From the NCBI GenBank assembly GCA_944324095.1, contig CALUUY010000003.1, forward strand, positions 1 through 56,988: a stretch of 56,988 bases of DNA. The letters are read 5' to 3'. Below, piece by piece: positions 177-38,303 of this stretch. Every line of letters starts with the position of its first letter. The stretch's first letter is position 1. The notes below the pieces were generated by a model. The model saw only the letters and a list, made by a program, of their open reading frames with translations. It had not been told where the DNA came from and did not search any database. Source of the DNA: an uncultured Elusimicrobiales bacterium. Its GTDB lineage: Bacteria > Elusimicrobiota > Elusimicrobia > Elusimicrobiales > Elusimicrobiaceae. Position numbers and translations under genes: made by a program.

Positions 177-424
177 GCGCCTGGGATTAGGTATCTTAAG
201 CGCCCTAAATATTCATAAATAGCCATAAATCCTACAAATTGTAGCGGGAGGAGTAGAAATGCCATTTTAGGCCAAATTTAACGTTCAAAGGTACCTTACA
301 AAAAGTTATAAGAAGGCCCTTTTTGACCATTTTTGAGGGTTCGTTCTCATCGAGAAAGTAAAATTTCCAATAAATAACATTTGCAGAGCAAAAATTGTAA
401 AAACTTCTAAAAGAGAAAGCATAC
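177..424 (-). repeat. Left direct-repeat copy: decayed relic of a serine recombinase 3' end
   Basis: This stretch matches 11366-11616 along almost its whole length in the same orientation, with scattered substitutions and small indels. Shared blocks include GGGATTAGGTAT, CCCTAAATATTCAT, GCCCTTTTTGACCATTTTT and GGTTCGTTCTC. On the minus strand the right copy encodes the recombinase C-terminus. The left copy still encodes ERTLKNGQKGPSYNFL, but a TGA precedes that peptide in frame and a TAA ends it early, so this copy is dead. The paired copies bracket the island. Confidence 0.75.
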
Positions 425-2609: not shown

Positions 2610-2618
2610 TGGTATAAT
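2610..2618 (+). promoter_or_regulatory. Extended -10 promoter of the peptide/radical SAM operon
   Basis: TGGTATAAT is a perfect extended -10 element (TGnTATAAT). No good -35 lies upstream, which is tolerable for an extended -10. Transcription would start near 2625, leaving a leader of about 30 nt before the peptide ATG at 2656. Confidence 0.55.
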
Positions 2619-2655
2619 TGTATAAGGTTAGAAATTTATTACGGAGAACAAACAA

Positions 2656-2793
2656 ATGAAAACTAAATATTCAAACTCAAAAATCGATCCACAGAAGCTC
2701 AATTACTGGCTTATGAAAAATATTAACACTATGGAGGAATTAACTGTTATGCAACCAGCTTGTTGGGCAGAAGCAGATCATCCAAATGACTAA
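2656..2793 (+). CDS. Candidate RiPP precursor peptide (45 aa)
   Basis: A 45-codon frame is preceded by GGAG (2643-2646) at 9 nt spacing and by an extended -10 promoter, and ends 14 nt before the first radical SAM gene. The N-terminal two thirds are polar and Lys/Asn-rich (MKTKYSNSKIDPQKLNYWL), as in a leader. The C-terminal part, TVMQPACWAEADHPND, holds the only Cys and one of two Trp. Small size, position and three SPASM-type radical SAM neighbours fit a ribosomally made, modified peptide. No known RiPP family motif is recognised. The modified residues cannot be read from sequence; the Cys-Trp pair and the acidic tail are the obvious candidates. Confidence 0.65.
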   Translation: MKTKYSNSKIDPQKLNYWLMKNINTMEELTVMQPACWAEADHPND

Positions 2794-2807
2794 TATACCT
2801 TTGTCTT

Positions 2808-3833
2808 ATGTCATTAAAAAAATCGCTACGCTTCTTAAATAAAGACATATATTTCATTATAACGAGAAAATGCAATTATACCTGCCCTTTTTGTATTCGC
2901 AAAAATCTTAAAGAACAGGCCCTTGATATGTCTTTTGAACAAGGGAAAGAAGTCTTGAGCAAACTGTCTGCTTTGTTACCATCTTCCACTATTATAATTA
3001 CTGGAGGAGAACCCTTTTTGCACAAAGACTGCATAGCCTTTGTTAGAAAAGCAATGTCTCTGTTTAAAGTAGTAATACTAACATCCAATGGATCCTTCTC
3101 TTTAGAAAAGGAACAAGAGCTTCTACCTCTATTAACTAAAAACCTATGGTTACAATTATCAATAGATGGCACAGCAGCTATGCATGATAAATTAAGAGGA
3201 AAAGGCGCCTACCATCAAGTTATTGGCAAATTAAAGAATTTACAACAATATGCCAATCATATCTTACTTTCAACTACGGTTGGAATGACGAACTTACACG
3301 ATATTAAAAATTTAGCGCAAGAATTAAATAAATACCTCTTTTATCGGTGGAAAATAACTGAAGAATTAGTCATTAATCCATTAAAAACACCTCTCATTGA
3401 TGTACGAGATTGGAATAATATGGTAGATACGGTTTTACCAATATGTAAGTTTCCTGTTAGAGTACAAAAATTTTTTGATTTTCCATTAATGGATAAATTT
3501 TTAAAAACATACAATCCCCTGAAACATAAATTAATTACTAAGTGTGGTTCTGGAACTAAGACATTTTCTATCAATCCTGATTTTTCTGTTCTTGCCTGCA
3601 CTTGTATGAATGAATCCATTGGAAACATAGCGTTGGAAGATCCCCAAAAAATATTAACTAACCTAGAATCTTTTTGCAATTTAGATCCTGCTGAAAATAG
3701 CATCTGTTTTTCGTGTAAATATAAAGATATTTGTAAAGGAGGTTGCCCAGGATATTCAAAAAAAGTATTTGGGCAATTTAATATGGGAGATATCAGATGT
3801 CCTCTTGTCAAAAAATACTATGAAAAGCATTAG
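2808..3833 (+). CDS. Radical SAM/SPASM protein 1
   Basis: This 341-residue protein has the radical SAM cluster-binding motif CX3CX2C (Cys22, Cys26, Cys29) and a TGGEP motif (SAM amino-group binding) at about residue 65. A C-terminal SPASM-type Cys set follows: CGSGT, ACTC, CFSC, CKGGC and a final Cys near RCPL. SPASM proteins of this layout modify peptides by radical chemistry, using extra Fe-S clusters, and are common in RiPP clusters; they need anaerobic conditions. It follows the 45-aa peptide by 14 nt, with a poor ribosome-binding site that suggests coupling, and its 3' end overlaps the next gene by 14 nt. The reaction cannot be predicted. Confidence 0.85.
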   Translation: MSLKKSLRFLNKDIYFIITRKCNYTCPFCIRKNLKEQALDMSFEQGKEVLSKLSALLPSSTIIITGGEPFLHKDCIAFVRKAMSLFKVVILTSNGSFSLEKEQELLPLLTKNLWLQLSIDGTAAMHDKLRGKGAYHQVIGKLKNLQQYANHILLSTTVGMTNLHDIKNLAQELNKYLFYRWKITEELVINPLKTPLIDVRDWNNMVDTVLPICKFPVRVQKFFDFPLMDKFLKTYNPLKHKLITKCGSGTKTFSINPDFSVLACTCMNESIGNIALEDPQKILTNLESFCNLDPAENSICFSCKYKDICKGGCPGYSKKVFGQFNMGDIRCPLVKKYYEKH

Positions 3834-4749
3834 AGTCCTTTTAACAGAGCAATGTAATGCCAATTGTGCCTTTTGTATTAATAAAACAGCGCGAGGCTCG
3901 TCTTTGATGGATGTGCCTCGATTTAAACATATGTGTGATTATTTTAAAAGAAATCACATAACAGGAATTAAAATCATGGGGGGAGAGCCCACCACCCACC
4001 CACACTGCATAGAAATGCTTGAAATGGCCCAGCAATCATTTCAAAAAGTATCTCTATTCACTAATGCTATTAATGATACTATTCTTCAATTTAAGCCACG
4101 CAAAAATGATGGGATAAATTATAACTTCTCTTTTTATAAAACGCTTTCTAAAAAGAAACTTCTACTAGATTATCCTGGATACAGAGCTCTCGAAATAATT
4201 ATTCACAAAGACACCGATGAAAAAAATATACTAAAAAGCATCTTATCACTAACTCGAGGAGAAACAAAACGTTTTTCCATATTGCTAACCTTGAATTGTA
4301 CAGAAGATATATTTGCGCATAGAAACATTTTGGTATATAAAATAGAAAAAATTTTTTCAACTTGCAAAGAAGCAGGACTTCAGACATCGTTTGACCACAG
4401 CATCCCTATATGTTTTATATATGGCACCAAAATACCTATCTTTCGCAAAGGAGCTTTTTGTGATTTGTCCTGTGCTGGATTAATAGACGCAGATTTTAAT
4501 TTATGTTTTTGTAATCAACATCCACAAAAACTAATTAATCTATTTAATGAACAAGGAGAAATCTTACCTATTCAAATCCTTGAAAATCATCTTAAATATA
4601 TACACTTCCAAAATCAAATAACTGCTTTGAATAAAATTTGTTTAAATTGCATATTTTTCGACAGAATGTGTAATGGCGGTTGTTTTATAACGAACAGAAC
4701 CATTACCATCAACTCCATACTGCAAAACACAGCACTTCCAACAATGTAA
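3820..4749 (+). CDS. Radical SAM/SPASM protein 2
   Basis: Start ATG 3820 is chosen because the radical SAM motif then lies at the usual N-terminal place (Cys12, Cys16, Cys19 in QCNANCAFC). An upstream start at 3769 would add 17 residues encoded inside the preceding gene. The protein is 309 residues with MGGEP and several C-terminal Cys pairs (CDLSC, CFC, CLNC, CNGGC), i.e. SPASM/Twitch-like auxiliary cluster ligands. It overlaps gene 1 by 14 nt and is followed by gene 3 after 4 nt, so the three radical SAM genes are tightly coupled. It is too different from its neighbours to be a recent tandem duplicate. Confidence 0.82.
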   Translation: MKSIRVLLTEQCNANCAFCINKTARGSSLMDVPRFKHMCDYFKRNHITGIKIMGGEPTTHPHCIEMLEMAQQSFQKVSLFTNAINDTILQFKPRKNDGINYNFSFYKTLSKKKLLLDYPGYRALEIIIHKDTDEKNILKSILSLTRGETKRFSILLTLNCTEDIFAHRNILVYKIEKIFSTCKEAGLQTSFDHSIPICFIYGTKIPIFRKGAFCDLSCAGLIDADFNLCFCNQHPQKLINLFNEQGEILPIQILENHLKYIHFQNQITALNKICLNCIFFDRMCNGGCFITNRTITINSILQNTALPTM

Positions 4750-4753
4750 TTTT

Positions 4754-5902
4754 ATGAATTCTACATCAAATTATTATTTTAGTAGGAAAATAAGTATTAC
4801 TACCAACCTATTTTGCAACCTACATTGTAATTACTGTTATGAAAATAAATATTCCAATAGATCCTTTGATCTAGACAGAACAATATATAAATTAAATTGG
4901 TACTTAAATGCCCCAACTTCCAAAGGGACTGTTATAGATTTGCACGGGGGAGAACCTTTTTTAATCTTTGAAAAAATTTGTCAGCTATGTGAATCCCTTT
5001 GGAGCCAAACATTTAAAGAAAATTTTATTATCCACACCACAACAAATGGCACATTAGTACATGGCAAAATAAAGCATTGGCTTCAAAAAAATAGGTCTAA
5101 ATTTCATGTAAAACTCAGTTTAGACGGATGTGAAAAAGCACATAATTTAAATAGGTGCAACTCCTTCTCTCAAATAGACTGTGATTTCTTTGCCCAAAAT
5201 TGGCCAAAAGAATATGTTAAAGTCACGGTCAGTCCCGAGTCCCTCCCATATTTAGCTGAGAGCATTGCTTTCCTTCATACAAAATTCAAAAAAATTCAAG
5301 TAAATTTTGCAGAACTAATCGACTGGAATACACCAAATCTTCTTTCAACTTATAAGGGGCAATTACTTCAATTATCTCAATTTTATACTGAGCATCCTTA
5401 CTACCTGCGATGTTCCCTTTTTACGTTAAATTATTTGAAATTACTAAATAAGCGCCCATTACACTCAGAAAAGCTATGTTCAAATGGACGAAAAATTGCT
5501 TTTGATATCGATGGAAACGAAGAATATCCTTGCCAACTAGTTCTACCAAGTGTATGTGGAGTTAAAAAAGCACAAAAATTTCGACAAATTATGACAGATT
5601 CACATCAGGTATGTTTTATTTCAAATAAATGCAGAAAATGCCCATTACATCCTTTATGTGATACCTGTTATGGAGCTAATTTCATTGCAAGAAATGCCGT
5701 CTATAAAAGGGATTTAAATCTATGTTTAGCGCAAAAGTTAAAAATTTGGGCTATTACAAAATATGATTACAACCGAATCATTAACCAAGTTAACACTACT
5801 TTGCTCCAAGAAGACAAATGTAACAATATAATTACTATGCAAGGAATTAAAAAAATACTGCCGGCACTATTGCAGCTAGAAAGCATATTTCAAACCATAT
5901 AA
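4754..5902 (+). CDS. Radical SAM/SPASM protein 3
   Basis: A 382-residue radical SAM protein: Cys21, Cys25 and Cys28 form CX3CX2C in FCNLHCNYCYE, with an HGGEP motif near residue 57. The C-terminus has the fullest SPASM pattern of the three (LCSNG, YPCQL, KCRKCP, LCDTCYG, NLCLA). The CxxxCxxCYE plus HGGEP signature resembles the sulfatase-maturase/peptide-modifying branch. It starts 4 nt after the previous stop with no clear ribosome-binding site, so translation is probably coupled. The A-PCP gene follows 20 nt downstream. Confidence 0.85.
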   Translation: MNSTSNYYFSRKISITTNLFCNLHCNYCYENKYSNRSFDLDRTIYKLNWYLNAPTSKGTVIDLHGGEPFLIFEKICQLCESLWSQTFKENFIIHTTTNGTLVHGKIKHWLQKNRSKFHVKLSLDGCEKAHNLNRCNSFSQIDCDFFAQNWPKEYVKVTVSPESLPYLAESIAFLHTKFKKIQVNFAELIDWNTPNLLSTYKGQLLQLSQFYTEHPYYLRCSLFTLNYLKLLNKRPLHSEKLCSNGRKIAFDIDGNEEYPCQLVLPSVCGVKKAQKFRQIMTDSHQVCFISNKCRKCPLHPLCDTCYGANFIARNAVYKRDLNLCLAQKLKIWAITKYDYNRIINQVNTTLLQEDKCNNIITMQGIKKILPALLQLESIFQTI

Positions 5903-5922
5903 ACCTTAACCCAAGTATATTT

Positions 5923-8856
5923 ATGCCTACAATAATTGATTGTATACGAGAACAAATTAGAATAAACCCAAACAAGTCAGCCATAATATGTGAAAATAGG
6001 CAGTATACATTTACCAACATTGGCCATATAGCTACTATTATCTCTCAACAACTCTCTGATAAAGGAATTAAAAAGGGAGATCGAGTAGCCGTTTTAGCAT
6101 CCAGATCGGAGTTGGGTGTTTTATTGGCTATTTCTATTATGAATATAGGGGCCATTTATATACCTCTAGATGAACGAACTCCTAAAAATAGATTATTAGA
6201 TATTTTCCGGTCGGCTAGAATAAAAATATTGGTTGGAGAAAAAGGTTTAATCAAACCTATACTAAACAGCAAACTCCCTTTTATCGCCATGTTTTATTCT
6301 ATTTATGATTTGCATGACTATACTTCAGCGGATGTAAGTATCTGTTTAAATAAAATAGACACTTATTCTAAAGCGGTTACAATATTTACTTCTGGTTCAA
6401 CAGGACGACCAAAGGGTATTACACACTCACATCAGGCATTATATATCTACAACAAAACTGCATTAGAAAATTCAGAATTGCATCCAGATGATAAATTAAT
6501 TGTTGCTGTTAACTATTGCTATACTTTTAGTCTCGAAATGTTTCAAGCTCTCATAAATGGAAACACGCTGTATATTGCTACAAATAAAATGCTCACAGAT
6601 CTTTCCTTGTTACACTTTTATATTAACAAACAAGAAATCACAGTCGCACTAATGCCAACACAAATAGGGCATCTATTTATTACAACAGGCAGAAAATCTC
6701 ATCTTAGGTTATTGATTATTGGAGGAGGGATATTGCCCCAATTAACTCAATTCCCGAAATATCAAATCTTAAGCGATTACGGCTGTTCAGAAGGATTATT
6801 TATAGGATCTCATAAAATTTCTCCGGATACGCATAACAATATACTAGACAAAATTAGTAAACATCTAAAGTACCAAATTGTAGATGAATTTAATCATCAA
6901 GTAGGTATAGGAAAAGTAGGAGAATTATGGATTTCTGGCCCTACTGTTGTCAGAGAATATACAGATCTTCCCCAATTAACAAATAATAAATTTGTCCACC
7001 AAAATGGAATACAATGGTATAAAACTGGAGACAAATTCAAGATTCTTCCAAATAATACTTATCAATTTGCCGGACGAACCGACAGAATGATAAAAATTGG
7101 TAATCAACGCATAGAACCATTTGAAATCGAGTTGTGTATTTCTAAAATTTCTAAAATCACTCAGTCTTTTGTCTGTTTAAAACAGGTTAATATGCGTCCT
7201 TACCTTTGTGCTTATTATATCTCAAGAAATAATAAAGAAGTTAAGGGAATACGTAAAAAATTATCAAAATACTTCCCTAATTATATGATCCCTGCTTTTT
7301 TTATAAAATTGCGGCATTTTCCGACTACGTCGAATGGAAAAATAGACCCCACACAATTGCCTACATCTCAATTATTGCGCAAAGAAAGAGCATTTCTCCC
7401 CAAAGAGGAAGAAGAAACGCTATTAAATTGTATTACTCAAGTCTTGTCCCTTAAACAAAAAATTGGACTTGACGATAATTTTACTGATATTGGAGGGAAC
7501 TCGGTAGACGCATTGTACTTAATTTCAGAATTAAGAAAACATCATATATTTATCACCCTCAAAGAACTACTAACCGCAAAAAAATTTCGAGAATTAATTC
7601 TAAAAAAAGATAAAAAACATTCCACTCGCACGAATAATTATGGAAAATTAATTTGCAGACTTCCCCCTCTTTTGAATTATTTAATTTCTCATAACTCAGC
7701 AGAATCCCTTAACAGATTTGTGATCCCAGAATTTTTTTGTTGCCCGCCAACAACTACTTTAAAGCATTTAGAAAAAGTTGTCAGAAATTTATTAAAAAGA
7801 CACGATATGTTAAGAGCTCTATTAAAAGAGGATGGCTTTCATATACAGGATGAAAAAGCCTCTTCATTATTTTGTCTGAAAGAAAAATGCTTAGATGGCA
7901 ACTCCAACGAAAATAATAACCAACTCAAACTTTTAATTGAAGAATTATATAAAAGTATCGATGTGCATAACGGGCCATTATTTGCTGTTTTCCTTGTTCG
8001 TGGCAAAAATTCTGCCTACATTTTAACAGCATGTAGTCATTTGATCTCTGATAATTTTTCCAAAAACATTTTGAAACAAGACTTTATCACCATTTTTTGT
8101 AATCTAATGGCAGATAAATCGACTCTACCTCTTCCAAAGATTAGCACCCCTTACTCGTATCATGCACATACACCAAGCTATCTTCACCTTTCCAAACATA
8201 AACCTTCCAATGTCTCTTTAAGGAAATATGACACTCTATCTAGCAAATTGGATAACAATGATTATCACAAAGTCTGTCTTTTATTAAAAAACAAAGACAG
8301 TGATTTAGTTTCATGTATGTTAATTCTGCTAATAAAAAGCTGGCATGAAATATTAGGAACCCAAAATTTTAATTTCATATTATTTCGCCATGGAAGAGAT
8401 CTCCTTAAAAACAGTCAAAATGGTCATATATCATTTGACCATACTGTTGGCTTTTTCCCTGTATGTCATAAAATTCAATTTTCATTTGCCCCAGAAATCT
8501 CTTTAATATCCAATATTAGATTAATCCATAATTCAATACAAGAAGCTAAAAAAAAGAATGAATATTTTGATTTTTTACAGGAAGACCAAACGCCTCTTTT
8601 CGGATTTAATTATCTTGGAGAAACTAGAGATTTTATAGATTATAAGAATCCCTTTTTATCACGACCCATAGATATTCCTAAGGGGATATATACACCTAAT
8701 AATTTAGACATGGGGGCCCCTTTTATGATATTTATGCATAAAATCAGCGACAAAATTATATTGCAAATTCGATATAACAAACAAATGTATAGAAGATCTT
8801 TTATAACCGCTCTTTTTAAAAGAATAAAATCTAATATTTCTGATATAAACCATTAA
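5923..8856 (+). CDS. NRPS-like protein: adenylation, carrier, epimerase/condensation-like domains
   Basis: This 977-residue protein is laid out A-PCP-E, like stand-alone initiation modules such as GrsA or TycA. Adenylation domain (about 1-490): TSGSTGRPKG (156-165), DYGCSEG, YKTGD, GRTDRMIKIG, and NGK with catalytic-type Lys473. The A4 region (YCYTFSLEMF, 198-207) lacks the Asp that normally holds the substrate alpha-amino group. Carrier domain: DIGGNS with the pantetheine Ser527. Residues about 590-977 are a condensation-superfamily domain of epimerisation type: SHLISDN (705-711) in place of HHxxxDG, keeping His706 and Asp710; HGRD (823-826); TVGFF; FNYLG (895-899). The epimerase Glu of EGHGRE appears to be Phe. 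No thioesterase or further module is present. Clustering with radical SAM genes and a small peptide suggests the activated unit is used on, or together with, the ribosomal peptide. Confidence 0.85.
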   Translation: MPTIIDCIREQIRINPNKSAIICENRQYTFTNIGHIATIISQQLSDKGIKKGDRVAVLASRSELGVLLAISIMNIGAIYIPLDERTPKNRLLDIFRSARIKILVGEKGLIKPILNSKLPFIAMFYSIYDLHDYTSADVSICLNKIDTYSKAVTIFTSGSTGRPKGITHSHQALYIYNKTALENSELHPDDKLIVAVNYCYTFSLEMFQALINGNTLYIATNKMLTDLSLLHFYINKQEITVALMPTQIGHLFITTGRKSHLRLLIIGGGILPQLTQFPKYQILSDYGCSEGLFIGSHKISPDTHNNILDKISKHLKYQIVDEFNHQVGIGKVGELWISGPTVVREYTDLPQLTNNKFVHQNGIQWYKTGDKFKILPNNTYQFAGRTDRMIKIGNQRIEPFEIELCISKISKITQSFVCLKQVNMRPYLCAYYISRNNKEVKGIRKKLSKYFPNYMIPAFFIKLRHFPTTSNGKIDPTQLPTSQLLRKERAFLPKEEEETLLNCITQVLSLKQKIGLDDNFTDIGGNSVDALYLISELRKHHIFITLKELLTAKKFRELILKKDKKHSTRTNNYGKLICRLPPLLNYLISHNSAESLNRFVIPEFFCCPPTTTLKHLEKVVRNLLKRHDMLRALLKEDGFHIQDEKASSLFCLKEKCLDGNSNENNNQLKLLIEELYKSIDVHNGPLFAVFLVRGKNSAYILTACSHLISDNFSKNILKQDFITIFCNLMADKSTLPLPKISTPYSYHAHTPSYLHLSKHKPSNVSLRKYDTLSSKLDNNDYHKVCLLLKNKDSDLVSCMLILLIKSWHEILGTQNFNFILFRHGRDLLKNSQNGHISFDHTVGFFPVCHKIQFSFAPEISLISNIRLIHNSIQEAKKKNEYFDFLQEDQTPLFGFNYLGETRDFIDYKNPFLSRPIDIPKGIYTPNNLDMGAPFMIFMHKISDKIILQIRYNKQMYRRSFITALFKRIKSNISDINH

Positions 8857-9199
8857 AAACCGAAGGAAATGCTCAATTCCAATTGAACCATCCTTTATTC
8901 ATCAAAATATATGAGATAGCAATTTGATATGTCTTACTGATTGTATCTAAATAATTTTAGATTTGTTTTTAGCATACTTATTATCTTAAAACAGATTATC
9001 CCTCTTACAATAGTTTAATACAGATATCCCTATCCTTTTAGACAAACAGTTTAATCAAACAGACTAAGACTTAATAACGCCATAAAAGGAATTTTATTAT
9101 ACGAACTTATAAATCCTTCTATATAAAAATATTCTGCATCAAATTTTAAATTATTTTTCTTTAAGAATGGATTTAAACATACTCTTTTCATTTTTTTAA
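8857..9199. other. Intergenic region after the NRPS-like gene, probably decayed
   Basis: AT-rich sequence without an intact frame. I see no convincing terminator; the only inverted repeat (AATTCCAATT, near 8873) is short and lacks a T-run. The region leads into the MATE remnant, so part of it may be eroded upstream exporter sequence, but I could not follow a recognisable frame. Confidence 0.35.
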
Positions 9200-9389
9200 A
9201 CTATACCCAGTCTAAACATTTTTTACAGCTTACATCTTAAAATTCCGGCTAGTCATATCTTCGGTTTTATTTTTGGCTTAGGGCTTCAAGGAATCTGGTT
9301 TTATTTTCTTAACATGTGCTGTGGTTCTCTATTATGCTAAATTCCGCAAATATCAAAAACTCCTGCATAACTCGGAATATCACATTTAA
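9200..9389 (+). pseudogene. Remnant of a MATE-family exporter C-terminus
   Basis: One frame encodes a membrane-protein piece with the pattern of the last helices of MATE transporters: LNIFYSLHLKIPASHIFGF then FGLGLQGIWF. After TGT the frame breaks; the +1 frame continues with VVLYYAKFRKYQK, the usual basic tail after the final helix, and stops at TAA 9387-9389. No start codon or upstream MATE domains survive. MATE pumps often export small modified peptides, so this was probably the export gene of the adjacent cluster or of a related one. Confidence 0.5.
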
Positions 9390-9510
9390 AATTAGAAAGC
9401 TTATCCCTTTAGGCTTCATTTACTTCAAATAAAAGTTAGTGTTAAGTATGTTACTTACTTAGATAACAATTTTACAATTCTGATAAAAAATAATTGCTTT
9501 TATACCCTCA

Positions 9511-9527
9511 ATCACACTAAAAGTGAT
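9511..9527 (+). promoter_or_regulatory. Inverted repeat upstream of the AIPR gene
   Basis: ATCAC-N7-GTGAT lies about 35 nt upstream of the AIPR start, followed by an AT-rich stretch (TAGAATAAAAT) that could serve as a -10. Size and place fit an operator, but no regulator gene is adjacent. The arms are only 5 bp, so chance is possible. Confidence 0.3.
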
Positions 9528-9562
9528 AGAATAAAATCAACTAATCATAAGGGATTATAAAA

Positions 9563-11317
9563 ATGGCAAATATACAAGAAGAAATAAAAATTTTAAGGAA
9601 ATTACATAAAAAATTAGAAGAAGTGTCTGACAATACTCTACTTCCCTTACTCGCATATAAATATATTTACATTCAAGATCCAGAAGACCTCAGGTATAGT
9701 GATTTTAAAAAAGTAATAGTCGATGGGCCTAACGATGGAGGAATTGATGCAATCTTCAATCATCCAGAAGACGATCGATTAATACTTCTTCAATCAAAAA
9801 ATTATTCCCAGGATATTTCCGCCAAAGACACGATTCTCAATGCTTTTCGCAAAATAAACGCTACTTTAAAAGACTTGAAAAATCTTCAAACTGCTAACTA
9901 TAATAAAAAGTTAAGAAGTGCTTGGAGCAATCTCTATGATGAAGACAAGTCCATAGAAGTCGTATTTTTGACCTCAGCCAACATAACAAAAGAGCTCATA
10001 ACTACAATCAAAAACAAACTAGACCAAGAAGAAATGCCGTTCCAAGCGACCATTTACACTAAACATGATCTAGAATTCTTTATTGATAATTCGGAAAATT
10101 CTTCTCCTTGGGTGCAATCGGCAACGTTGGATATAGACAAAAATAATAAATGTTTATGTCCCAATAATGATAATGGGGTAATTGTAAATATAACTGCTAC
10201 TAGTCTGAAACGAATCTATGATATTTACAACATCAAACTTTTCCAGCAAAATTTTAGATATTTTATTAAAGATAAAAAAGTGGATCCTAAAATTGTAGAA
10301 AGCATACAAAAAAACAGCAATCTTTTTTGGTTTTTAAATAATGGGATTATTATTGCCTGTAAAGATTTTCGCTTAGATGGAGATAAACTCCGGTTGGAAG
10401 ATTTTTCTATTATCAATGGATGCCAAACCACATCCCTTATTGGCGAACACAACTTTTCTAACGACTTTTATTTAACCTGCAAAGTAGTAAAAGCTCCCTC
10501 CCCCGAAGAACAAGATGCGTTCGTCAGCAAAATAGCAGAAGCCTCTAATAGGCAAAAAGCTATCAAACCTAGGGATTTAAAATCGACAGATAAAGCTATG
10601 CGAAAGCTGCAAATGGATTTGAAAAAAGAGATACCAGCCCCTTCTATATTCTTAGAAATTCGCAGAGGAGAAAAAGCTCCGCGCAATGCTGAAAAACTAA
10701 AAAATGACCTCTATGGACAGCTCGTTTTGTCTTTTATGTTACAACAACCTGCTAAAGCACGGAATAGTAGCCGCACTATGTTTGATTCTCCCAGCCTTTA
10801 TAGTGCCATATTTAAGAGAAAAAACTTTGACAAAGAAGCCATTGTAGATTTATGGGACTTATATAAAAGTTTTATGGACTACAAAGATAAAAAACTTAAG
10901 GATGGTAATTTCTCTATCGAAGAAGCCGAAACAATGATTGAATATATCCATTTCTTTGTGCTTGCCATAGCTGGTTTAATTGTAAAAGTTAAAAGAGGCC
11001 TGTTTGACATTACTGCAAAAGATTGTTTTTCCTCTCCAGAAGGAGAAAAGAAATTACAAGAAGATAATATACAAGGCCGTTTTTTAAATAAAGAAATAAT
11101 GGACCATGACACTATTTTATTTGGTTTCTTTGATTGTATTTTGGAAGACCTAACTAATATTTTCAAAGATCATAAGAATAGTATCGGTACGGAAGCAAAT
11201 TTTACAAAAGTTACGGAGCATTACCCTAAATTAGTGCTTCCTTTTATAAAGGATCGTTTCTTTATAAATGATTACCAAAAGAAATTAAGGAAGGACTTCT
11301 TAAACTTATTCAAATAG
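9563..11317 (+). CDS. AIPR-family (abortive infection phage resistance) protein
   Basis: A 584-residue protein whose centre carries the AIPR signature: FWFLNNGIIIAC, then IINGCQTTSL. AIPR proteins (Pfam AIPR) occur in phage-defence loci and are linked to abortive infection or restriction. The N-terminal 150 residues look like a restriction-endonuclease-type fold: NDGGIDAIF with Asp62, then LILLQSKNY with Gln77 and Lys79, matching D-(E/Q)-x-K. That would make it a nuclease fused to an AIPR module. The start has AAGGG upstream. It is a single-gene unit between the MATE remnant and the truncated recombinase, in typical accessory DNA. The target is unknown. Confidence 0.8.
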   Translation: MANIQEEIKILRKLHKKLEEVSDNTLLPLLAYKYIYIQDPEDLRYSDFKKVIVDGPNDGGIDAIFNHPEDDRLILLQSKNYSQDISAKDTILNAFRKINATLKDLKNLQTANYNKKLRSAWSNLYDEDKSIEVVFLTSANITKELITTIKNKLDQEEMPFQATIYTKHDLEFFIDNSENSSPWVQSATLDIDKNNKCLCPNNDNGVIVNITATSLKRIYDIYNIKLFQQNFRYFIKDKKVDPKIVESIQKNSNLFWFLNNGIIIACKDFRLDGDKLRLEDFSIINGCQTTSLIGEHNFSNDFYLTCKVVKAPSPEEQDAFVSKIAEASNRQKAIKPRDLKSTDKAMRKLQMDLKKEIPAPSIFLEIRRGEKAPRNAEKLKNDLYGQLVLSFMLQQPAKARNSSRTMFDSPSLYSAIFKRKNFDKEAIVDLWDLYKSFMDYKDKKLKDGNFSIEEAETMIEYIHFFVLAIAGLIVKVKRGLFDITAKDCFSSPEGEKKLQEDNIQGRFLNKEIMDHDTILFGFFDCILEDLTNIFKDHKNSIGTEANFTKVTEHYPKLVLPFIKDRFFINDYQKKLRKDFLNLFK

Positions 11318-11365: not shown

Positions 11366-11616
11366 GGCGCTTGGGATTAGGTATCCCAAGTGCCCTAAAT
11401 ATTCATCAATAACCACAAACCCTAAAGTTGTAGCGGACGGGCCCAAAATGCCATTTTTAGGCCGAATTTAATACCTCAAGTCGCCTTGCAAAAAGTTATA
11501 GGAAGGGCCTTTTTGACCATTTTTAAGGGTTCGTTCTCGTCGGGAAAGCAAAATATGCCAATAAATAACATTGGTGGAGAAAAAGTTGTAAAAATATTCT
11601 AAAAGCGAACCCCATA
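11366..11616 (-). repeat. Right direct-repeat copy covering the recombinase 3' end
   Basis: The partner of 177-424. It begins with a strong stem-loop (GGGCGCTTGGG / CCCAAGTGCCC, about 11365-11395) just past the recombinase stop, then covers the last codons of the recombinase gene. The stem is weakened in the left copy. The stem-loop has no T-run on the minus strand, so a simple terminator is less likely than a structured end or recombination-associated site. Confidence 0.7.
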
Positions 11617-12487
11617 TTAAATGCTTAGAACTTTTAGGGGATTTTCCCTTAATTTCTAAGCATTTTTTATTTCCTTCCGCAAAAATATTGAACGGTTCGC
11701 GGTATTTTGGGTAAATTTTGTGTCCGTTCAATACAAAATCGCTGGCTATATGGCGCAAAAGCGGCTTTTTTTCTGAGAGCGGAGCCTCGCGATAGATAGT
11801 ACCCATATTACATACCAACTTTAAAATATCCGTGCTTTTTTGCCGTACGGCGTCCGGCTGTATAGTTTGGGCTTGTATTTGCTGTGTAAGCTCGGCAATA
11901 GCCGTTTTTAAGCGTTCTTCCGTGCGTTTTATAAACTCCGCTGGATAGCCCTTTTCCCAGCCCTCGTCATATAACCGTTCTAATTCCGTTTGCTTTTTGC
12001 TTAGTTCCGCTTTAAGCCCGCCCGTCGCCTTGTTTTGGGCCTTTTCCAAGTGTTTTAAGCGTATTTCTATGGCTTTTTGTAGCCACGACACTACTCCCGG
12101 CTTTAAACTAATAGCATCTATCAATGCCGAAAACGCCTCATCCAGCTGATGTTCCCGAATGTATTTTTCGTGCGGATGTTGCCCTTTAGAAAAGGAACAG
12201 CGGTAATACATATATTTCTTTTTAGCAAAATCCCCCACAATAGAACAGCCGCAATCTTTGCAATGAAGCAGATTAGAAAAAGGATAATTGCGGGTAGTCA
12301 CGCGGGGACGCCCAAAAAGGGAGAGAGCCTTATTGGCCCTCTCAAATAACTCTTTTGTGATGAGCGGTTCGTGAATGCCCGGATAGAGTTTCTTGCCCCA
12401 ACGAAAAGTGCCATAATACATCGGGTTATGAAGCACCCGATACAGGGCTCTTTTACACCTTCTACCAGTACAAAAACTCTCCCGCAT
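11468..12487 (-). pseudogene. Large serine recombinase, 5'-truncated (catalytic domain missing)
   Basis: The 339-residue frame begins inside the recombinase domain (RVLHNPMYYGTFRWG). It continues with the zinc ribbon (LHCKDCGC ... YRC), a long coiled-coil region (about 150-210) and a C-terminal tail. These are the DNA-binding parts of large serine integrases/transposases. The N-terminal resolvase domain with the nucleophilic Ser, about 150 residues or more, is absent: the frame starts only about 20 nt after the stop of the neighbouring host gene. The protein could bind DNA but not recombine it. The truncation point is a likely island/host junction. Confidence 0.8.
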
Positions 12488-12508: not shown

Positions 12509-13816
12509 TTATTTTGCCCAAGGCAACACCCAGGCATAATCAAAACCAGTCTGTTTGGCTAGTTCGCGCGCATCCGGCCCACGCCAATAATGTATAGTGG
12601 GAAAGTGAAAGCGCATATCATAAAATGAAAAAGACTCTTTCCATACGCCCGAAAGGACTTCGTCCCCTATCGGAAAAACATAAGAGAGAGCTACAACAGC
12701 CGGGTTCTCGTTAGCAAAAAATTTAGGCAAAGAATACGGATACACCCACGAAGTGTGGCCCAATCCCGCATACACTACAAACAAAGTATCGGGGTCAGTC
12801 TTTCTAATTTGCCGCATTTTACTTTCCATTACCCGCACCCAGGATTGATTACGAAGCATTATTCCACGCAAAGACGCTTCCGCTTTAAACAGGGGCCCTT
12901 GTTCTTTAGAAATCATTTGGTATAAAGCCCGGTCTTCCAACGGATATACTTCTATACCGCCTTGTATCAGAGAATCAAATAATGGCTTGGCATAATCTAC
13001 CACCAATTGGGGGTCTTGTTCCACAAGTTTACCCAACTTTTCTTTGGATACACGGCGGTAATAACTAGCAGTAGTCGTCCCTTCGGGTGCAGCAAGAGCA
13101 GGCAAATCAATAAATTCCGTAAACAATACGATACGGCGCTTAGGATTTAAGTGTTTAAGTTCGTGCAAAAAATCCCCAACCGCTGAGTGAATGCTATCCA
13201 CATAATGCATTTCCCCCAAAATAATCATCTTTTGAGAGGACAACCTCTCGGCCAATTTAGCGGCTACATCTTTGCCGCCAACCACACCTAATTCAGGTTG
13301 GCCCTGTCCCGGGCGGTTTTTAAGCCAGTTTACTTTTTCTATAAAATGTTTGGTTGCTTGTAAAAGCAATTGATTGTTTTTTACCGCAAACTCAGACGGA
13401 ATAGTCATCGGTTGATATAAAGACTGAAAAATGCTATTGGTTGCTATGGCCGGCTCGCTGTCCAACACGCGCTTAATTTCCGCCAGCAGGGCATCGTTTT
13501 TAGCTTTTGTGGCGGCATCTGCCCGTTGGGACAAGTAAGCTTTAGTTGGTGTGTTAAAATCTGTTTGAAAAACTTTTACCTGCCCTTGTTGCTTAAACCG
13601 GTTTTGATGATGTTTCAGCCAAGATTTACCGGCTTTGCGTTGTAAATCTTGCGTTTGTTTAGCAGACAAAAGCCCGGCAGAAGCGCGCAGAGACGACTGG
13701 GAGGCATTTTTGCCTCCTTTGGTTATTATACGGCTAACAGATGAAATATTTTTTTGCGCATACCCGCAAGGCACGGCTAGCAACCCAAACAACAACAAGC
13801 TAATAATTTTATTCAT
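12509..13816 (-). CDS. ChaN/TIKI-like exported protein (paralogue 1)
   Basis: The start at 13816 gives a clean signal peptide (MNKIISLLLFGLLAVPCGYA-Q) and has GGTGGAG upstream; the longer frame from 13846 adds 10 unlikely residues. The mature protein of about 415 residues has the ChaN/TIKI/EreA-superfamily pattern: ILGEMHY (GExH), RRIVLFTEF, and near the end YAGLGHTSW (GxxH). Members include haem-binding lipoproteins and metal-dependent proteases; the function here is not known. Two paralogues lie at 14010-15326 (divergent neighbour) and 37206-38303. Its stop is about 20 nt from the truncated recombinase, so it marks the right edge of conserved chromosome. Confidence 0.75.
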   Translation of the reverse strand: MNKIISLLLFGLLAVPCGYAQKNISSVSRIITKGGKNASQSSLRASAGLLSAKQTQDLQRKAGKSWLKHHQNRFKQQGQVKVFQTDFNTPTKAYLSQRADAATKAKNDALLAEIKRVLDSEPAIATNSIFQSLYQPMTIPSEFAVKNNQLLLQATKHFIEKVNWLKNRPGQGQPELGVVGGKDVAAKLAERLSSQKMIILGEMHYVDSIHSAVGDFLHELKHLNPKRRIVLFTEFIDLPALAAPEGTTTASYYRRVSKEKLGKLVEQDPQLVVDYAKPLFDSLIQGGIEVYPLEDRALYQMISKEQGPLFKAEASLRGIMLRNQSWVRVMESKMRQIRKTDPDTLFVVYAGLGHTSWVYPYSLPKFFANENPAVVALSYVFPIGDEVLSGVWKESFSFYDMRFHFPTIHYWRGPDARELAKQTGFDYAWVLPWAK

Positions 13817-13918
13817 AACTATCATTCTCCACCCAAAATAAGACAAAAACTCTTACTATACAATTTAAAAAATTTACACTTTTTAAAACAGGGTCTTTAA
13901 ACCCATTTTATTTTCTAT

Positions 13919-13946: not shown

Positions 13947-14009
13947 CTACCCTTATTATTAGGGCCAAAGGCTCTTTTGGACTTACCTATAAAAATTTAT
14001 ATTGGTATT

Positions 14010-15326
14010 ATGAGATTTTTAGCTTTTATTTTTTTACTCCTGTTAAGTGCGCCCTTCCATGCGCAAAATCTTCCGCGCGTTTTGACAAAAAACATCACTC
14101 AACAGCAACTTAAACAAACCCTTAAGCAAAAGGCCACAGCAACCAAAAATTTCGTTACATCCTTTCAAAAGCGAGCTTCTTTCTCTAAAACGGGCCAGCG
14201 CAACGCCCCGTCCAACGGCGTATGGCAAGAATTATGGAAAGACCCTCCCCACCGCTTGGAAGAACAAGAATATCCGCTAGACCACAATCCGTTCAGTGAT
14301 TTTAACATCACGTTGCGCCAAATAGAAGCGTTAAAAGAGCAGTATAATGTTTATTACTCGGAAAAGTCCCTTTACCATATGCTGGAACATTCCTACCACC
14401 CCTCATCTTTTGCGCATCATAATAACAAAATGGTTTTACGGGCACTTATCAACCACATTAAAAGAATTCAATGGTTAAACCAATACCCCAATAAAGGCCG
14501 TAACGCTCTTAAGCAGGATAAAGGGGAAAACCCTATTTTCCAACTGGCAAGGCATCTGCAACAAGAAAAGATGATTTTTCTGGGAGAATACCATTTTAAC
14601 CCGGAAATTCAGCAATTTGTCAGCGGTTTAATCTTAGCCCTTAAAGCGCAACAGCCCAAACGGAGAATAGTCGTTTTCACAGAATTTCTTCCGCTTTCCC
14701 CGCGCAAACTGCCGGACGGGCAAACGCTAGAAACCTATTACCGCCGGATTAACCAAAAAGATATGGCCCCTATTTCTTGGATGGACGTATCTTCTTATAC
14801 ATACGCCCAAAATACGTTTAATGAATTATTAAAAAACCGGGTAGAGACATTCCCGCTGGAAGACAAACAACACGTGCAATTAATGTCCCAAGAATACAAT
14901 TCCGAACAGTGTGAGCTTCCCCTATCAGTATCTATACGAAACAAAACCTGGGCCCGCATAATAGAAAACAAAATGGCCCAAATTCGCCAAACGGATCCCG
15001 ATGCTTTGTTTGTGGTGTATGCGGGGCTGGGCCACGTTTCTTGGATTTACCCGTATGCCTTGCCTAAATTTTTTGCTAAAGAAAACCCCTCAGTGGTGTC
15101 TGTTATTCTAAAAGAGCACCTAAAACTAAATTTTTTAACCAATATTTGGGGCCCTAAAGATCCATTTTTTAAATTTCCTAAAACAAATACGGTTTTTTAT
15201 TGGGCCGGCCCCGATGCCCGCCGCTTGGCTACAAATACAGGGTTTGATTATATGGTACCCCTCAGCAAGAACAACTGGCAACGCTTTAAACAATTCTTTA
15301 ATGAATTGGCCGCTATGTTAGATTAA
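14010..15326 (+). CDS. ChaN/TIKI-like exported protein (paralogue 2)
   Basis: The ATG at 14010 begins a signal peptide (MRFLAFIFLLLLSAPFHA-Q); an upstream TTG at 13977 would put charged residues before it. The 438-residue protein shares the family landmarks with its divergent neighbour: FLGEYHF (GExH), RRIVVFTEF, KTWARIIENKM, and YAGLGHVSW. Both also share a YWAGPDAR/YWRGPDAR motif near the end. It is predicted to be periplasmic. The ribosome-binding site is weak. The pair clearly arose by duplication and then diverged; the ligand or substrate is unknown. Confidence 0.75.
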   Translation: MRFLAFIFLLLLSAPFHAQNLPRVLTKNITQQQLKQTLKQKATATKNFVTSFQKRASFSKTGQRNAPSNGVWQELWKDPPHRLEEQEYPLDHNPFSDFNITLRQIEALKEQYNVYYSEKSLYHMLEHSYHPSSFAHHNNKMVLRALINHIKRIQWLNQYPNKGRNALKQDKGENPIFQLARHLQQEKMIFLGEYHFNPEIQQFVSGLILALKAQQPKRRIVVFTEFLPLSPRKLPDGQTLETYYRRINQKDMAPISWMDVSSYTYAQNTFNELLKNRVETFPLEDKQHVQLMSQEYNSEQCELPLSVSIRNKTWARIIENKMAQIRQTDPDALFVVYAGLGHVSWIYPYALPKFFAKENPSVVSVILKEHLKLNFLTNIWGPKDPFFKFPKTNTVFYWAGPDARRLATNTGFDYMVPLSKNNWQRFKQFFNELAAMLD

Positions 15327-37205: not shown

Positions 37206-38303
37206 TTAACGCCAAGACAGAAGAAAATCGTAGGGGGTTTCTATTTTTAAATCACTGCCCATAATAAGGGCCGCTTCTTTACTGTTGGCACGATATATAC
37301 CGTAAACGCCTTCGGGCGGGGCAGGCTGATGTTCAAGCCACATATTCCATATACTTTCCGCACTGCCGGGAATACGCCAACCGTTTGGAATAAAATCAAT
37401 AACAAAAGTTTTGCCCACGTTTAAAGAAAGCGGCACGCTGCCGGCAATGGCATAACTCCAATGCGCTTTACCGCCATATACAAAAAACACGCCCTGCGGG
37501 TCTAAACGGCGCAACTGGGCAATTTTTTCTACAAAGCTTCGGTTGCGTATCTCCTGCCCGCTGGCGGAAATGTATTTACGCACCACCCGCTGGCGCACAT
37601 TGGACAAGGAAGTATTATACAACCGCACCAAAGCCGGGCGCTCAAGCCCAACTAAAAAAACCCCCTGCTCTTTTACCAAAGATTCCAACATCTGTGCGCG
37701 GGACAACCCCTGCTTGCTGTACGGGCCGTTTGGCCCCCAATTAGCGGCGTGGTAAATGGTTCCGTCATCGGCCACGCTTTCGGCCAAAACATAAATATTA
37801 CGGTTAGGATAGGCGGAACGGTAATCTTTAATTAACTGGTAAATTTCCCGGTGGATGGCTTCACGCCCGTGTATCTCCCCCAAAAAAATGAGTTGGGCCG
37901 ATTGCGGTATCAGCCCGGCATAGTCCACACTGCGGGCATATTGTGCTTGAACCGGATTAGGATGATTTAAAAACAGTTCTAAATTCTTTTGAAGAAGCCA
38001 GTGCCTTTGGGCAGATAAAACTTGATTGCGTTTACTAAAAGACGGCGCTACACCTGCCGGGTTATACACGTTTTTATCTTCTTCCGCCAACATTTTAGCC
38101 AAGTTGGCTTTGTTTACTGCAGCTTGTGCGGCTTTTTGCGCACGTAAAGACAAGGTTGTCCCGGCTCGTCCGCCCAATAGGCTAAGCTCAGTTGCCTGCT
38201 TAGACACGGTAACAGCCGCATTTTTACCGGCCGAAACCAACGGCTGGGCCCAGCCGTTACAACCAAACAAAACAAGAAGCAAAAACAATGTATAGCGGTG
38301 CAT
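37206..38303 (-). CDS. ChaN/TIKI-like exported protein (paralogue 3)
   Basis: A 365-residue protein with a signal peptide (MHRYTLFLLLVLFGCNGWA-Q). It shares the family landmarks with the two copies at 12.5-15.3 kb: IFLGEIHGREAIH (GExH), NIYVLAES, FVEKIAQLRRLDPQGVFFVYGG and KAHWSY (GxxHW). The N-terminal ISS/TKGGK-like region is also similar (SAGKNAAVTVSKQ). It is shorter and more diverged. Function unknown; the copper genes next door are separated by a promoter and give no clear link. Confidence 0.72.
   Translation of the reverse strand: MHRYTLFLLLVLFGCNGWAQPLVSAGKNAAVTVSKQATELSLLGGRAGTTLSLRAQKAAQAAVNKANLAKMLAEEDKNVYNPAGVAPSFSKRNQVLSAQRHWLLQKNLELFLNHPNPVQAQYARSVDYAGLIPQSAQLIFLGEIHGREAIHREIYQLIKDYRSAYPNRNIYVLAESVADDGTIYHAANWGPNGPYSKQGLSRAQMLESLVKEQGVFLVGLERPALVRLYNTSLSNVRQRVVRKYISASGQEIRNRSFVEKIAQLRRLDPQGVFFVYGGKAHWSYAIAGSVPLSLNVGKTFVIDFIPNGWRIPGSAESIWNMWLEHQPAPPEGVYGIYRANSKEAALIMGSDLKIETPYDFLLSWR

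Follow-up and report, generated by a model that had tools for sequence, protein, structure and literature searches.

A 45-residue peptide encoded in the window (the whole 56,988-nucleotide stretch of DNA analysed here, from an uncultured Elusimicrobiales bacterium) very probably belongs to a RiPP precursor family that is new and is served by a radical SAM enzyme of its own. More tentatively, with doubt clearly the stronger, we propose that the same operon encodes a RiPP/NRPS hybrid pathway, in which an epimerase-derived A-PCP-condensation protein would transfer a carrier-bound non-amino acid to the peptide cross-linked by three radical SAM enzymes.

The operon consists of five consecutive genes on one strand, separated by 14, −14, 4, and 20 bp according to ORF analysis (Table 1). 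The Pfam Radical_SAM model matches rSAM1 (2e-15), rSAM2 (1e-9), and rSAM3 (3e-6, just under the gathering score). ORFs, gaps, and Pfam matches confirm the initial annotation, which had described three tightly coupled radical SAM genes and a 977-residue gene in one direction. A TTG at 3769 provides an alternative start for rSAM2. The same annotation had assigned the peptide ORF a ribosome-binding site, which is indeed present as a GGAG, and a promoter. A TATAAT does lie 5′ of the peptide gene (2613–2618), but promoter-like sites are no commoner in the region than in shuffles (40 versus 38.9), so this promoter is not established. Among the operon genes, we saw neither an exporter nor a protease, and no RRE domain.

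Table 1. Coordinates of the operon, its ribosome-binding site, and the edges of the surrounding island in the window.
Feature	Position	Strand	Description
Left direct repeat of island	177-403		74-86% identical to 11367-11593
Shine-Dalgarno GGAG of peptide gene	2643-2646	+	9 nt 5′ of ATG, read from sequence
Precursor peptide	2656-2793	+	45 aa ORF
rSAM1	2808-3833	+	341 aa, radical SAM/SPASM enzyme
rSAM2	3820-4749	+	309 aa from ATG, short radical SAM protein
rSAM3	4754-5902	+	382 aa, PapB/CXXX-repeat-like radical SAM enzyme
A-PCP-E-like protein	5923-8856	+	977 aa
Right direct repeat of island	11367-11593		overlaps 3′ end of recombinase fragment
Serine-recombinase C-terminal fragment	11468-12487	-	Pfam Recombinase + Zn_ribbon_recom; island edge

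The peptide is putatively divided into a leader, NYWLMKNINTMEELTV, and a core, MQPACWAEADHPND. We aligned rSAM3 with a Phocaeicola homologue and scanned a genome-contig collection of 84,980 species with the resulting profile; rSAM3 alone as a query against genome contigs found nothing. In a Bacteroidales MAG (locus L011), a 45-aa peptide (8789–8926) is followed in order by homologues of rSAM3 (40% identity to the window protein) and rSAM1 (37%) and by a GT61-like gene. The two peptides agree at 14 positions, with the pattern NxWLxxNxxxMExxTVxxPACW, and their local score of 65 was equalled by none of 20,000 shuffles (maximum 50). An independent lineage carries the peptide at the corresponding position, which makes it more than a chance ORF. 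A profile built from the rSAM1 proteins of the window and L011 revealed a third locus, L093, in a genome of the spirochaete phylum, comprising a 44-aa peptide that contains SVMAWAAWFEG, a SPASM radical SAM gene, a short radical SAM gene, an rSAM1 homologue (31–33% identity; 33% to the window protein), and a LysA-like PLP decarboxylase gene. The L093 peptide resembles that of L011 significantly (score 44; 8 of 20,000 shuffles as good), whereas its comparison with the window peptide on its own is not significant (4023 of 20,000). When the cores are aligned on Trp, they read PACWAE (window), PACWYD (L011), and AAWFE (L093), with AxWx[DE] common to all three; an aromatic residue at position i is accompanied by an acceptor at i+2 in each precursor (WAE, WYD, and WFE). 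Conservation in the core is limited to approximately AxWx[DE], and the C-terminal tails differ among the related loci. The last gene varies as well, encoding the A-PCP-E-like protein in the window, the GT61-like protein in L011, and the PLP decarboxylase in L093. Thus, the proposal in the initial annotation of a ribosomal peptide modified by radical enzymes gains support from other species in which the peptide and the radical SAM genes next to it are both conserved. This support is strong in L011 and weaker in L093, and neither homologous locus lacks the peptide.

The rSAM1 profile returned no further family member from samples of Bacteroidales, Clostridia, Bacilli, and Spirochaetota, and its weaker matches, G1208 and G1571, were rejected as belonging to other radical SAM systems. 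Searches for rSAM1 in 150 related genomes and for rSAM3 in 295 genomes of the same phylum yielded unrelated radical SAM loci and no family member. Nothing was found for the operon DNA in plasmids, or for rSAM1, rSAM3, and the A-PCP-E-like protein in viral contigs, where a match to the peptide pattern proved to be an unrelated frame. Peptides with ACW-type motifs in a reindeer gut genome (L035) were likewise rejected as family members, since they belong to a different cluster; that locus (1464–2740) carries six tandem peptides between two radical SAM genes, of which five start with M(T/I)xSE(I/V)IE and one contains NNSACWFEGCGCDEACG.

rSAM1 is the sole enzyme common to all three loci. Its SPASM Cys set is complete (C246, C264, C300xxC303x5C309x3C313, and C331) and is kept in all of them, as is the C-terminal signature GGCxGxSxxxFxxxxMGD[IF]RCP. 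Among solved structures, those closest to it in sequence are SkfB, the radical SAM protein 5wgg (which we take to be CteB), and an anaerobic sulfatase-maturating enzyme. No NCBIfam model claims rSAM1, and among the best 25 matches listed for it and its homologues, no cyclophane-enzyme model exceeds its cut-off. The predicted rSAM1 structure, made from two sequences, was too poor for use (mean pLDDT of 52). Of the SPASM-type Cys sets initially ascribed to all three enzymes, that of rSAM1 is complete and that of rSAM3 nearly so; the set of rSAM2 is only partial, with the last Cys missing (TIGR04085, 17.9 bits versus a cut-off of 27). rSAM2 and the short radical SAM protein of L093 were rejected as orthologues, their similarity being 24% over the N-terminal half only.

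Among NCBIfam models, rSAM3 is matched by PapB (NF047865, 6e-25) and the CXXX-repeat maturase (TIGR04115, 5e-24), in both cases under the curated cut-off (88.1 versus 340 bits and 85.5 versus 350 bits, respectively). Its homologues in L011 and in a further locus, L010, are 40–44% identical to it, and Cys-rich precursors adjoin the rSAM3 relatives from the genome-contig scan in most loci examined. The two loci with a Cys by the Trp in the core (window and L011) encode rSAM3, whereas L093 has neither this Cys nor rSAM3. From this correlation over three loci, we infer that rSAM3 acts on Cys36 and rSAM1 on the Trp region. SPASM enzymes are known to make W-x-Asn/Asp cyclophane cross-links, and PapB joins Cys to Asp or Glu as a thioether (PMC11002830). 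Two more Cys/Asp-rich peptides are encoded upstream of the L011 precursor (8409–8570 and ∼8633–8735); they share CSEI[IV]FLxAxxYxxSMC and may be added substrates of rSAM3. The L010 locus (7436–10630) is a candidate ranthipeptide cluster: it encodes the nearest relative of rSAM3 (44%), accompanied by a Cys-rich peptide and by genes for an M42 peptidase and a GNAT-like protein.

The last protein of the operon contains A (residues ∼9–481), PCP (∼499–558), and E/C-like (∼590–977) domains in that order, with Pfam matches to AMP-binding (1e-44), PP-binding (9e-7), and Condensation (3e-18). TIGR01733 (9e-62) places its A domain in the amino-acid lineage, with LgrA and TycA as the best PDB matches, and the best PDB matches of its C-terminal domain are epimerization domains; judged from its sequence, the protein is a descendant of amino-acid-activating A-PCP-E modules. 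We compared its active sites by alignment with five other synthetases. Motifs A3, A7, A8, and A10 are kept, and both the catalytic Ser of the PCP (GGNS) and the A10 Lys (NGKID) are present. In the A domain, FDxS has become YTFS, which places Tyr/Thr at the position of Asp235, and YGPTE has become YGCSE; the Asp and the Pro are conserved in all five comparison synthetases. In the E-like domain, HHxxxD, on which the five also agree, is replaced by SHLISD, so that the second His and the Asp remain of HHxxxDG, and LEGHGRE/MEGHGRE by LFRHGRD, where Phe stands in for a Glu found in all five comparison proteins. Epimerization reportedly requires the Glu of EGHGRE (Stachelhaus and Walsh, 2000). Hence, the original description of an A-PCP-epimerase/condensation-like protein holds for the domains and for their best match, but the conserved epimerization Glu is missing, and epimerization is probably not what the protein does.

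Asp235 binds the alpha-amine; this Asp and the Pro are both lost in the alpha-keto-acid A domain StsA, and aryl-acid A domains are without the Asp, their A5 motif being of the AEGL type, comparable to CSEGL here (PMC11253843). The A domain of McyG also lacks the Asp but accepts Phe (PMC11253843); absence of Asp235 is therefore no proof that the substrate is not an amino acid. On the strength of the active-site substitutions, we read the protein as probably loading an acid and transferring an acyl group, with no epimerase activity. In the genome, which is 88.75% complete, we found only one gene of the ACPS family (116 aa, AcpS-type) and no Sfp-type phosphopantetheinyl transferase gene.

In the mechanism that we propose, the 45-aa peptide would be bound through its leader (NxWLxxNxxxMExxTV). 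rSAM1 would act around the conserved Trp, most probably by linking Trp37 to Glu39, W-x-[DE] having the spacing of a three-residue cyclophane. rSAM3 would use the adjacent Cys36, most probably to form a thioether with a Glu or Asp side chain (Glu39 or Asp41), and rSAM2 would make a third change. The A-PCP-E-like protein would activate a carboxylic acid that probably has no free alpha-amine (an alpha-keto, alpha-hydroxy, or aryl acid) and hold it on the carrier domain, from which the condensation-superfamily domain would transfer it to the peptide without epimerization. Because the core contains no Ser, Thr, Lys, or Tyr, the acyl acceptor would have to be Cys, a newly formed N-terminus, or a group that the radical enzymes introduce. 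We infer all of these chemical steps, as well as the action of the A-PCP-E-like protein on this peptide, and hold the scheme as a whole with doubt only slightly outweighing confidence.

That the A-PCP-E-like protein works in the same pathway as the peptide is, by itself, likely. The hybrid step is plausible but unproven, the protein being tied to the peptide by operon position alone. The initial annotation had suggested testing whether the peptide, the three radical SAM genes, and the A-PCP-E gene stay together in other genomes; the last of these is in neither L011 nor L093, and the link thus has one example. The gene was not found in an unrelated conserved operon either. Of the RiPP/NRPS hybrid suggested at the outset, the RiPP half therefore stands, whereas the carrier-bound half rests on operon structure. 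A full-text search of open-licence papers returned no description of the combination of a RiPP peptide, radical SAM enzymes, and an A-PCP-E protein.

The operon is probably part of a horizontally acquired island, as indicated by its low GC content, the bounding direct repeats, and the adjoining recombinase fragment. The first 11.5 kb of the window have a GC content of 29–37% (∼32%), compared with 44–55% (∼47%) for most of the remainder, and the repeats, ∼230 nt each, are spaced by 11,190. The island also encodes an AIPR/AbiU-like phage-defence gene (9563–11317; PADLOC AbiU, 5e-37) and a 446-aa protein (677–2017) that probably has a membrane segment at its N-terminus and matches nothing in Pfam, NCBIfam, or PADLOC. 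Next to the island, a pair of divergent ChaN/Tiki-like proteins is encoded side by side (12509–13846 and 13977–15326), and a third protein resembling this pair, with no Pfam match, is encoded at 37206–38303.

The A-PCP-E-like protein might instead be a neighbour that came with the island and works elsewhere or nowhere, the peptide and radical SAM genes forming a complete RiPP pathway. L011 and L093 manage without the gene, its E-like domain and A pocket are altered at conserved positions, and no Sfp-type transferase was found in the incomplete genome; nevertheless, we consider this account rather unlikely, given that the gene lies on the same strand after a gap of 20 bp, that its 977-aa frame is intact, and that the PCP Ser and the A10 Lys are kept. 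In addition, L011 and L093 likewise end in an extra enzyme that differs between them, so a variable tailoring gene is normal at the operon's end. It is less probable still that the peptide is a disposable scaffold, on whose Trp/Glu a small molecule is built before the peptide is cut off, as for PQQ, mycofactocin, and pearlin. Such a role would suit an operon without an exporter, a core conserved only around AxWx[DE] with differing tails, and extra enzymes that act on amino-acid-like groups (the A-PCP here and the LysA-like decarboxylase in L093), but the island has no protease or PEARL/LanB-like gene and rSAM3 comes from a group tied to Cys-rich precursors. Least probable, despite the amino-acid lineage of the A domain and the E domains that best match its C-terminal partner, is that the protein loads and epimerizes an alpha-amino acid for the pathway as annotated, since Asp235, the YGPTE Pro, and the EGHGRE Glu are all replaced.

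We favor a cross-linked peptide that would receive a carrier-bound acid. Three distant lineages share a radical SAM enzyme and a small precursor family, which the analysis defines by NxWLxxNxxxMExxTVxxPACW and AxWx[DE]; the last tailoring gene is a different one in each. It also offers a compact system for testing NRPS-type carrier chemistry on a radical-modified ribosomal peptide, and an epimerase-derived domain that may have become an acyltransferase.

Several known systems resemble parts of this operon. The PapB and CXXX-repeat ranthipeptide maturases are the closest curated relatives of rSAM3, and as in their pathways a Cys lies near acidic core residues and a small precursor adjoins the enzyme gene. 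Unlike those systems, however, the operon has two further radical SAM genes, its rSAM3 falls far under the curated cut-offs, and its core has a single C36 with E39 and D41 in place of a CXXX or CX3D repeat. With triceptides and the three-residue cyclophane enzymes (XncB, OscB/GrrM, and YhhB), the operon shares a W-x-[DE] motif and a SPASM enzyme beside a short precursor; it differs in that rSAM1 exceeds the cut-off of no listed cyclophane-enzyme model, and here the motif was seen in only three loci and the cross-link is predicted. The nosiheptide side-ring pathway (NosI-NosJ-NosN-NosK) likewise joins a RiPP and radical SAM enzymes to delivery of an adenylated, carrier-bound acid, which we propose here from domain content, and NosI, NosJ, and NosK set the precedent of a RiPP that receives a carrier-bound acid (PMC5585349). 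In that pathway the core is a thiopeptide, the acid comes from NosL, of which we saw no counterpart here, and NosI, NosJ, and the hydrolase-like NosK are separate, in contrast to the one A-PCP-C/E protein of the window. Finally, unlike the NRPS A-PCP-E initiation modules GrsA, TycA, and LgrA, this protein has replacements at the three conserved A- and E-domain residues and is encoded on an island with no partner synthetase, but it shares with them both domain order and sequence lineage.
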